From the NCBI RefSeq assembly GCF_001748285.1, contig NZ_BDGT01000001.1, positions 186,001 to 250,000 on the forward strand: DNA of 64,000 nucleotides. Reading direction: 5' to 3'. The translations under genes and the position numbers were made by a program. Within the stretch, counting starts at the first letter, position 1. Every line of letters begins with the position of its first letter. The notes below the pieces were generated by a model. That model saw only the letters and a list, made by a program, of their open reading frames with translations, searched no databases and had not been told where the DNA came from. Below are positions 17,228 to 19,382 of the stretch, one piece after another. The DNA comes from Thermogemmatispora onikobensis (lineage in GTDB: Bacteria > Chloroflexota > Ktedonobacteria > Ktedonobacterales > Ktedonobacteraceae).

Positions 17228-17503
17228 TTAGCTGAGGCCGAACTTCTGCGCCAGCTCGCGGTTCGAGGGTTCCACGAGGATGGAGCCGTCGGGGAAGACG
17301 ATGGTGGGGACGCTGCGCAGACCACCATTGACCTGGAGGACGTAGGCGGCAGCCTGCTCGTCTTTTTCTATATCGATGTAGTCATAGGAGATGTGGTGTT
17401 CGTCGAGCCAGCGCTTTGCTCTACGACAATCACCACACCAGCTTGTCGCATATACCTTGATTTGCTGTTGGGTAATAGTCGAAGCGGTAGCGTGTCTTTC
17501 CAC
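17228..17503 (-). CDS. Glutaredoxin-like protein (mycoredoxin/NrdH type)
   Basis: A 91-residue thioredoxin-fold redox protein. The active site is Cys23-Gly-Asp-Cys26 in YATSWCGDCRRAKRWL. A cis-proline loop SVPTIVFPDGS and the C-terminal PSNRELAQKFGL complete the fold. Mycoredoxins of actinobacteria have a similar Trp-Cys-x-x-Cys-x-x-x-K arrangement and work with low-molecular-weight thiols; the partner here is unknown, though a PIG-L deacetylase of the type used in such thiol pathways lies 3 kb away. Start is GTG at 17503 behind AAGGAG. It is monocistronic as far as I can see. Confidence 0.88.
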   Translation of the reverse strand: MERHATASTITQQQIKVYATSWCGDCRRAKRWLDEHHISYDYIDIEKDEQAAAYVLQVNGGLRSVPTIVFPDGSILVEPSNRELAQKFGLS

Positions 17504-17920
17504 AGAGATAGCTCCTTGGGAATGCGATGATAGTGGAGTGCAAAACCCCGGGTTACACTTTATAAAAACACAGCAGGGACAGGTCTCTATTCCTGAGTCT
17601 CCTTCCCTTGAACCTCAGTGCGACGCCATGCTGTCCTTACCTCGCGCCCTTGTTCAGGCATCTGAAGGACTGATGGCAGGCCGGGTGCTACCAGCTGTGA
17701 GTGAGGCTTTTGCTTGTAACCTTTTCTGTTGGCCAGCTGTTATAAGGAGCAGTGGCAGGAGCAAAAGCACACCTGCCAGGACAGGGGCAAGGCCCAAAGG
17801 AGAGGAGGCTAGTACAAGCAGTGAAGCCGGCTTTCACCTTCATTTCCCCAACTAGCAAAGATCTGAGAGGGGCCCTGTCGGGGCAGCAGTCCACAGGAGG
17901 CCAAAGTCAGGAGCAGGGCA
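17504..17920. other. Divergent intergenic region between glutaredoxin and ECF sigma factor
   Basis: 417 nt between divergently transcribed genes must hold both promoters. AT-rich patches occur near 17564 (TTTATAAAAACA) and near 17741 (TGTTATAAGGAG), but I could not fix either promoter with confidence. No gene is visible. Confidence 0.4.
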
Positions 17921-18544
17921 ATGCCCAAGAATCGTGCTGATGAGGTGGATCTCGATCAAGAGCAGGCGCTGCTAGATGGCCTGCTCGTCGACCTCGATCG
18001 CTGCTTCGAGCAGGTAGTGCTCCGCTATGAGCAGCGCCTCTTTGCCTTCGCTCTGCGGTTGAGCGGGAGTTACGAAGAGGCGCAGGAAATCACCCAGGAC
18101 GCCTTTGTGCGCGCCTATCACGCGCTTAGCGGCTATGCTGTCGAGCAGGTGCGTACTCTGGCTCTGCGTGCCTGGCTCTATCAGATTGTGCTCAATGTGG
18201 CGCGCAATCGACTGCGCAAGCTTCGCCGTCTGCCAGCCTGTCTCTCTCTGGAGCAGGCCAGCGCAGACCTGGACGAGGAACCGGAGAGCGCACCAGCCAA
18301 CGGTCCCGAGGCCCACCTGGAGGCGCGCGAGCGGCAGCGTCTGCTGCAACAGGCGCTGCTGATGCTACCGCTCCCCTATCGTGAGGTGATTGTGCTGCGC
18401 CACATCGAGGGGCTGAGCTATCCAGAACTGGCCCGCCTGCTCAATCAACCGATTGGGACGGTCAAAGCCAGAGTCCATCGTGGCCTGACGCAGCTACGCC
18501 AGGTACTTGCTAATCATCATGCTCGTGAGGTGCTCTATGACTGA
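17921..18544 (+). CDS. ECF-type RNA polymerase sigma factor
   Basis: A 207-residue group 4 sigma factor. Region 2 covers about residues 25-75 (YEQRLFAFALRLSGSYEEAQ, then ITQDAFVRAYHAL). An acidic linker (about 115-130) follows, and region 4 ends the protein with LPYREVIVLRHIEGLSYPEL and the recognition helix IGTVKARVHRGLTQLRQ. ATG at 17921 has AGGAG eight bases upstream. Its last 8 nt overlap the next gene, an alkyltransferase with an Ada-like metal domain, and that gene's ribosome site lies inside this one. ECF factors are usually co-transcribed with their anti-sigma factor; the coupled gene takes that position. No classical anti-sigma gene is present. Confidence 0.95.
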   Translation: MPKNRADEVDLDQEQALLDGLLVDLDRCFEQVVLRYEQRLFAFALRLSGSYEEAQEITQDAFVRAYHALSGYAVEQVRTLALRAWLYQIVLNVARNRLRKLRRLPACLSLEQASADLDEEPESAPANGPEAHLEARERQRLLQQALLMLPLPYREVIVLRHIEGLSYPELARLLNQPIGTVKARVHRGLTQLRQVLANHHAREVLYD

Positions 18545-19382
18545 GCAACAGTTTCGCAGCCTATCACAAGGGCGACAACTGGTCCGCGAGCTGCGCACTT
18601 TCCAGCAGGAAGCTTCACCCCCACCAGCCCTGCGCTCCCGCGTTTTGCTCCGCGTCGGGCTGGCTGACGGCTACCTGTGCTTCTCGTCGCCGATCGGACC
18701 GGTTTTCGTGGCACTGAATGTGCGCGGAATTTCCGCAGTGGATCGCGCAGAGGATGCAGCCAGCTTCGAGGCTCGCTTTCGCGCGGAGTTTGGACGGCCC
18801 ATCGTCGCCCTTGATCTCGCTGACGCTCCAGCCTGGGCCAGGCAGATCGAGTCTGCCCTACAGACCGGCCACGCGGCCAATCTGCCTTTTGACCTGCGGG
18901 GCCGCAGCCCCTTCGAACAGGCCGTCCTGTGCCGGACGCTGCTGATCCCCTTCGGCGAGGTGCGCCCCTACGCCTGGGTAGCGCGCGAGATTGGGCAGCC
19001 ACACGCCGTACGGGCCGTGGGCAACGCCCTGGCACGCAACCCCATCCCGCTGCTGATCCCCTGCCACCGGGTGGTGCGCAGCGATTGCCAGATCGGTAAC
19101 TACAGTCTGGGCGGCCCGCTCAATAAACGGGCATTGTTGCAAGCCGAAGGGATCGACCTGGACTTGCTCGAGCAGCTTGCCGCCAGGGGGGTGCGCTACA
19201 TCGGCAGTACGACTACCCATGTCTACTGCTTCCCGACCTGTCGCTACGCGCGCCGAATCTCCCCGGAACACCGCCAGCCCTTGCACTCGCCGAAGGAGGC
19301 GGCACGCCTCGGCTATCGCCCCTGCCAGCGCTGCCGTCCCGCCCCTCTCGCAAGTGCAGAGAGCAGCCTCGCCAGCGAGTAG
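18537..19382 (+). CDS. Methylated-DNA-cysteine methyltransferase fused to C-terminal Ada-type Cys4 domain
   Basis: A 281-residue DNA-alkylation repair/sensor protein. Residues 1-45 are unassigned and contain PPPALRSRVLLRV. Residues 45-205 form the Ogt/MGMT fold: helix-turn-helix region with the Asn hinge VGNALARNP, the acceptor Cys176 in IPCHRVVRS, and the ending SLGGPLNKRALLQAEG. Residues 218-268 match the Ada metal-binding domain, with Cys231 and Cys235 (VYCFPTC) and Cys263 and Cys266 (RPCQRC). In E. coli Ada this domain is N-terminal, detects methylphosphotriesters and drives an AraC helix; here it is C-terminal and no AraC helix exists. ATG at 18537 follows GAGGTG inside the sigma gene. 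Possible alkylation-responsive partner of that sigma factor (inference). Confidence 0.92.
   Translation: MTEQQFRSLSQGRQLVRELRTFQQEASPPPALRSRVLLRVGLADGYLCFSSPIGPVFVALNVRGISAVDRAEDAASFEARFRAEFGRPIVALDLADAPAWARQIESALQTGHAANLPFDLRGRSPFEQAVLCRTLLIPFGEVRPYAWVAREIGQPHAVRAVGNALARNPIPLLIPCHRVVRSDCQIGNYSLGGPLNKRALLQAEGIDLDLLEQLAARGVRYIGSTTTHVYCFPTCRYARRISPEHRQPLHSPKEAARLGYRPCQRCRPAPLASAESSLASE

Follow-up and report, generated by a model that had tools for sequence, protein, structure and literature searches.

The stretch analysed here, a 64,000-nucleotide segment of the genome of Thermogemmatispora onikobensis (contig NZ_BDGT01000001.1; referred to below as the window), carries on its forward strand a gene for an extracytoplasmic function (ECF) sigma factor that overlaps a gene for an O6-alkylguanine alkyltransferase. 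We examined this pair as a candidate alkylation-sensing circuit in which the repair protein would be the regulatory partner of the sigma factor. The parts of the pair are as follows.

17921–18544, + strand: ECF sigma factor gene (207 amino acids, ATG start), assigned by Pfam, NCBIfam and a tree of related sigma factors
18537–19382, + strand: O6-alkylguanine alkyltransferase gene (281 amino acids, ATG start)
18537–18544, + strand: overlap of sigma stop and alkyltransferase start, ATGACTGA (8 nucleotides), read from the sequence
18537–18668, + strand: N-terminal extension of the alkyltransferase, residues 1–44, with the motif PPALRSRVLLRVGLAD; evidence: AlphaFold helices, tracking of the sigma gene and recurrence on HEAT-repeat membrane partners
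18669–19154, + strand: alkyltransferase domain, residues 45–206 (Pfam PF01035; PDB fold match 1sfe)
19062–19064, + strand: codon of the active-site Cys176 in PCHR (PCHRV in the window), PCHR being invariant in all complete aligned homologs
19182–19340, + strand: C-terminal Ada-type Cys4 zinc domain, residues 216–268 (Pfam PF02805; Cys231, Cys235, Cys263 and Cys266)

An ECF sigma factor overlaps an alkyltransferase gene

The sigma open reading frame (ORF) matches Sigma70_r2 (6e-13) and Sigma70_r4_2 (5e-16) and scores above the cut-off of TIGR02937; with sigma2 and sigma4 domains only, in about 200 amino acids, it has the composition of an ECF factor. The 8-nucleotide overlap claimed in the original prediction agrees with both the coordinates and ATGACTGA and is identical in other Thermogemmatispora, and from it we infer that the two genes are co-transcribed.

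The alkyltransferase matches DNA_binding_1 (PF01035, O6-methylguanine methyltransferase, MGMT) at residues 125–206 (4.5e-27) and Ada_Zn_binding (PF02805; 2.2e-10), and a Pfam search of the protein found no AraC domain. The original description of a C-terminal Ada-type Cys4 domain without AraC thus agrees with Pfam, and Cys176 and the four zinc-domain cysteines sit where it had placed them. The protein shares with E. coli-type Ada an MGMT domain with PCHR and lacks the N-terminal Cys4 domain and AraC helix-turn-helix; its score against the full-length Ada model is 97, below the cut-off of 345. An AlphaFold model of the protein (mean predicted local distance difference test (pLDDT) of 88) has 1sfe, the C-terminal domain of E. 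coli Ada, as the best PDB fold match of its alkyltransferase part and 1u8b, methylated N-Ada with DNA, as a fold match of its C-terminal domain.

The genome contains no alkyltransferase match besides this protein, and across the six Thermogemmatispora genomes searched its C-terminal domain is the sole Ada-type Cys4 domain. The pairing is not due to chance, because the same genes occur in the same order in most close homologs and ECF-like sigma matches number 25 in the 5.56-Mb genome.

The pair is conserved across phyla

Homologs of the alkyltransferase occur in Chloroflexota, Actinomycetota, one Rokubacteria metagenome-assembled genome (MAG) and one MAG labelled Proteobacteria, mostly with an ECF sigma gene immediately upstream; the pair is widespread in the first two phyla. 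The partner lies directly downstream of the sigma gene in most relatives, the order expected of anti-sigma pairs. In a sample of Actinomycetota, 26 of 346 genomes have the long form of the protein, and the sigma gene is directly upstream in 23 of the 25 loci read. The original prediction had staked its partner idea on homologous sigma factors keeping the coupled gene in relatives, and the neighbourhood check shows the pair kept across phyla. A search for relatives of the pair in viral contigs found none. One locus (L027) is the only one in which sigma factor and alkyltransferase share a single reading frame.

The original prediction had also made sensing depend on conserved Cys4 residues, which was borne out in part: in the alignment, PCHR and all four Cys4 cysteines are invariant in complete sigma-linked long forms, but the Cys4 domain is absent from other sigma-linked forms (L083 and L092–L094). 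The PCHR cysteine is therefore the universal reactive residue, and Cys4 is dispensable.

A short N-terminal extension tracks the sigma gene

Sigma-linked proteins start with 25–60 residues that close with a motif resembling APPxLxxxVLxRVGLADxY, whereas alkyltransferases without a sigma gene mostly start straight at the repair domain. We scored this extension in MGMT homologs for which sufficient upstream sequence was available (83 sigma-linked, 17 without sigma), each lineage being scored by a profile built without that lineage. The extension was present in 68 of the 83 sigma-linked proteins versus 2 of the 17 unlinked ones (P = 6e-8) and, within the set of Cys4-bearing proteins, in 63 of 68 versus 1 of 7. 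Presence of the Cys4 domain is tied to sigma less strongly (P = 0.001). Because the sequences are related, these P values overstate their independence.

AlphaFold predicts two helices in the extension of the window protein, at residues 3–25 and 32–39 (pLDDT 66–81). With two helices in under about 50 amino acids it has the size of a class II anti-sigma domain, to which we liken it as a working description; we do not assign it to that class because no solved class II domain matches it in sequence. We propose, from this co-occurrence and predicted fold, that the extension is a sigma-binding anti-sigma module. The suggestion in the original prediction that the repair protein fills the slot of an anti-sigma factor is upheld as far as the pairing goes; the putative anti-sigma part is the extension rather than the repair domains.

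The sensor behind the module is exchanged

In Ktedonobacteraceae, the family of the window, the genes that come after sigma factors 40–45% identical to the window sigma encode HEAT-repeat proteins (Pfam HEAT_2) that have a membrane segment. Several of these HEAT-linked sigmas carry the same promoter motif as the alkyltransferase-linked ones (described below), and many of their partners start with the extension motif, for example VPPSLLPTVLQRLGL (L221), APATLLPALLQRLQL (L233) and APASLLPGVLSRLE (L228). The alkyltransferase-extension profile, trained without HEAT-repeat membrane proteins, scored 9 of 18 of them above a level passed by 5 of 504 background ORFs (P = 1e-11). In a quick sigma tree with many weak forks, the HEAT-linked sigmas form one branch (support of 99) nested in the MGMT-linked clade. 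The motif on these partners and the nested tree indicate that the sigma factors keep this short module on their partners, whichever sensor it is joined to.

Loci L219–L233, L235 and L241 each have an ECF sigma gene of the same clade, with several paralogs per genome, followed by a HEAT-repeat and membrane protein. By sequence, they probably constitute a new family of ECF/anti-sigma pairs.

At five further loci (L103, L101 and L048–L050), the gene after the ECF sigma gene encodes an alkyltransferase whose N-terminal part is a zinc anti-sigma-type domain (HxxxCxxC), a motif absent from the window protein. The match is clear in L103 (zf-HC2, 1.8e-8; RsrA model, 5.9e-6) and weaker in L101 and L048–L050, with L101 and L048 below the cut-off. 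In the quick tree the L048 sigma belongs to the main clade near Thermogemmatispora, and the L101 and L103 sigmas form a separate lineage. AlphaFold places the anti-sigma helices of the L048 fusion where expected at low confidence (pLDDT about 45–55), which we do not count as proof. These lineages suggest that alkyltransferases became ECF partners on more than one occasion, the zinc-domain fusions being a second architecture of apparently independent origin. The original prediction had likened residues 20–45 to the linker of anti-sigma proteins, and both the sensor exchange and the zinc anti-sigma/MGMT fusions strengthen that likeness.

Promoter and predicted regulon

Two features precede the sigma gene.

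17715–17745, + strand: predicted ECF promoter of the operon, TGTAACC-N15-CTGTTATAA, a variant of the TGCAACC-N15-GTGTT consensus
17746–17920, + strand: leader of about 175 nucleotides from promoter to sigma start, conserved in part across the genus according to an alignment of six Thermogemmatispora upstream regions

A de novo search upstream of 79 sigma genes returned as its top spaced word pair GCAA/CAAC with TGTT, found in 50–52 sequences versus about 1 in shuffles, which gave the consensus TGCAACC-N15-GTGTT. As a weight matrix it scores above 9 in 67 of 82 upstream regions; those that fail belong largely to other sigma lineages, together with the window locus (L001) and a few main-clade members. 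The motif has a single match in the window, at 17715–17745, and none in 100 shuffles. Five other Thermogemmatispora keep both boxes while the spacer drifts. The sigma operon has the promoter pattern of an autoregulated ECF operon, and we predict that it is one.

The leader, with its inverted repeat GTGAAGCCGGCTTTCAC, is kept in most Thermogemmatispora and is missing from isolate HOG45. Divergent from the operon lies a glutaredoxin-like gene (17228–17503, − strand), and a strongly conserved block near 17530–17575 may be the promoter of that gene.

Exact copies of the motif are few elsewhere in sigma-bearing genomes, with about 20 distinct non-self sites. Seven of these lie within 100 nucleotides of genes for EamA, Oxygenase-NA or AlkA, compared with a rough chance expectation of well under 0.1. 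They precede unlinked genes for EamA exporters (L135, L138, L245 and L247), for Oxygenase-NA, which according to its Pfam annotation acts on damaged DNA (L243 and L246), and for AlkA (L152). EamA or AlkA genes also lie on the same strand 3′ of the alkyltransferase in many loci. In Pseudonocardiaceae (L243, L246 and L040, 2668–4285), Oxygenase-NA, a 2-oxoglutarate–Fe(II) dioxygenase, has the motif upstream or adjoins the sigma operon. On annotation and position, Oxygenase-NA is a candidate DNA-repair enzyme of the regulon. We rejected AlkA as a general target: because, of the loci inspected in the 28 genomes searched, only one AlkA homolog (G084, L152/L153) has a strong motif upstream, it is an occasional one.

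In a motif search of five Thermogemmatispora genomes, the sigma operon was matched in the four that allow an exact match, and the other hits were recurrent or single sites. A near-identical copy of the motif (G000:C59:13874, G050:C4:628506, and G140:C2:222858 and 352460; L130, L132, L133 and L145) has no clear gene downstream. The sequence that holds it occurs twice in one genome, is shared by different Thermogemmatispora and is perhaps a mobile element.

The pair in relation to canonical Ada

In the textbook form of bacterial alkylation sensing, the sensor is Ada, in which a methylated Cys4 domain acts together with an AraC domain. We surveyed 21 relatives, 18 of which have an Ada Cys4 domain. 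In 8 of the 18, the domain is high-scoring (95–116 bits) and lies in an ORF of 371–538 amino acids; the two of these eight that were read have the canonical Cys4–AraC–MGMT order. The other 10 have only the lower-scoring Cys4 type typical of the window architecture. None of the 18 genomes has both kinds. Three families of the host's order each include genomes of either kind. By this distribution, the pair is a predicted replacement for canonical Ada–AraC, the two being mutually exclusive in these relatives. The 'domain-swapped Ada' of the original prediction is just one of several architectures.

A proposed circuit and its alternatives

The domains, the conserved pairing, the extension that tracks the sigma gene, the exchange of sensors, the promoter and the neighbouring genes are read directly from the sequences. 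We consider it probable that they describe a sigma/anti-sigma pair of the ECF type that controls its own expression and whose anti-sigma half senses DNA alkylation, which frees the sigma factor. In the proposed circuit, the two-helix N-terminal module of the alkyltransferase would hold the sigma factor inactive. The alkyl group of O6-alkylguanine would be moved irreversibly onto Cys176, and alkyl groups of methylphosphotriesters probably onto a cysteine of the C-terminal Cys4 domain, which would weaken the grip of the protein on the sigma factor and set it free. The free sigma factor would start transcription at the TGCAACC-N15-GTGTT promoter of its own operon, yielding more sigma factor and repair protein, and would also drive genes for the EamA exporter, the Oxygenase-NA dioxygenase or AlkA, depending on the lineage. 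Once the damage is gone, newly made, unalkylated protein would re-capture the sigma factor and close the loop, so that the circuit would count unrepaired lesions.

Several observations speak against this interpretation. Binding between sigma factor and partner, release on alkylation, the choice of signalling cysteine and the sign of regulation are steps that we infer. The first helix of the extension is predicted with moderate confidence (pLDDT 66–79), and a search of the PDB with the extension profile found no relevant match and no solved anti-sigma domain. The panel counts are not phylogenetically independent. The window promoter is a weak match (score of 4.7) with two departures from the consensus (TGTAACC and CTGTT). 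Beyond the operon the regulon is small and lineage-dependent, and the motif search of five Thermogemmatispora genomes gave no clear extra target. Finally, L086, L088 and L091 have an MGMT–Ada protein with low extension scores after a sigma factor of an unrelated lineage. An AlkA gene lies further downstream in two of these three loci, which are a possible further independent recruitment.

The alternatives differ in what the partner does. It could be a co-activator, the alkylated MGMT–Ada protein binding the sigma factor or the promoter and stimulating transcription, with the N-terminal module as a tether to the sigma factor. The Cys4 domain does resemble the methylation-activated DNA-binding domain of Ada, and E. 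coli Ada, once methylated at Cys4, switches on transcription, including that of its own gene (PMC6818145). However, zinc anti-sigma domains and HEAT-repeat membrane proteins with the same motif also occupy this slot, which is the layout of inhibitors, and L083 and L092–L094 are sigma-linked yet lack Cys4; we regard a co-activator as unlikely. Alternatively, the two proteins might make no contact, the sigma factor being controlled through its own synthesis and the alkyltransferase being the first target in the operon. Overlap and shared promoter would account for co-transcription, self-targeting is ordinary for ECF factors, and a published review (PMC8999054) lists ECF122, a group with MGMT neighbours, without a cognate anti-sigma factor. 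That this explanation leaves the sigma-tracking of the extension, its recurrence on HEAT-repeat membrane partners and the zinc anti-sigma/MGMT fusions unaccounted for makes it, in our judgement, quite improbable.

An anti-sigma factor that answers to a signal other than alkylation, such as zinc or thiol stress at Cys4, with repair as a separate job, would suit the divergent glutaredoxin-like gene that adjoins the operon. Yet PCHR is invariant, whereas sigma-linked forms without Cys4 exist, the neighbouring and motif-linked genes are those of alkylation repair (AlkA and Oxygenase-NA) and exporters, and the pair and canonical Ada are mutually exclusive; we think this the least likely of the three.

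Extending the preferred reading, an alkylation-released sigma factor, beyond the window, we lean towards a widespread and previously unrecognised adaptive response. In it, a suicide repair enzyme would be the anti-sigma factor, irreversible alkylation of its repair cysteine would release the ECF sigma factor, and the system would replace Ada–AraC in Thermogemmatispora and many further Chloroflexota as well as in some Actinomycetota, its portable short module being fitted also to HEAT-repeat and membrane sensors. If this is true, one molecule both repairs and signals, the chemistry known from Ada takes effect through the release of a sigma factor, and the published, unexplained link between ECF sigma factors and methylguanine methyltransferases gains a mechanism. 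This reading predicts an alkylation regulon (EamA exporter, Oxygenase-NA and AlkA) in phyla that lack canonical Ada and exposes a very short anti-sigma module, and the irreversible, self-contained switch could serve as a clean component of alkylation biosensors.

Comparison with known systems

Our literature search found nothing that joins O6-methylguanine, anti-sigma factors and ECF factors, nor the anti-sigma module, the fusions, the sensor exchange, the promoter or the exclusion of Ada; the primary ECF classification paper lay outside the search. In PMC8999054, which cites Casas-Pastor 2021, 6-O-methylguanine DNA methyltransferases are described in the neighbourhood of ECF122, with an example from Cellulomonas, and ECF122 appears among groups without a cognate anti-sigma factor and without a known mechanism, so that the association of the two genes is in part already on record. 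As far as that neighbourhood description goes, ECF122 resembles the window locus in having an ECF sigma gene beside an MGMT gene.

Among anti-sigma factors, the class II protein CnrY of Cupriavidus metallidurans has two short helices that wrap the sigma factor, the first contacting sigma4 and the second sigma2 (PMC7406223). It is a very short two-helix domain of the same size and helix count as the modelled extension, but it carries no repair domain, and the extension has no sequence match to any solved chain. A survey of class I anti-sigma factors left aside domains of under 50 amino acids (PMC7406223). Zinc-binding anti-sigma (ZAS/zf-HC2) factors such as RsrA and ChrR are likewise soluble, sense through cysteines and are fused to MGMT in L103, L101 and L048–L050, whereas the window protein lacks HxxxCxxC.

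Another close counterpart is E. coli Ada (Cys4–AraC–MGMT; regulon ada–alkB–alkA–aidB). Both systems have the two alkyl-accepting domains, a suicide repair protein as the (here putative) sensor, autoregulation and related target functions (self, AlkA and a DNA-repair dioxygenase). In the window protein, by contrast, Cys4 is C-terminal, AraC is absent and the N-terminal module is foreign to Ada. Canonical Ada is found in relatives without this pair, and where the pair occurs the predicted output is the ECF sigma factor of the same operon.
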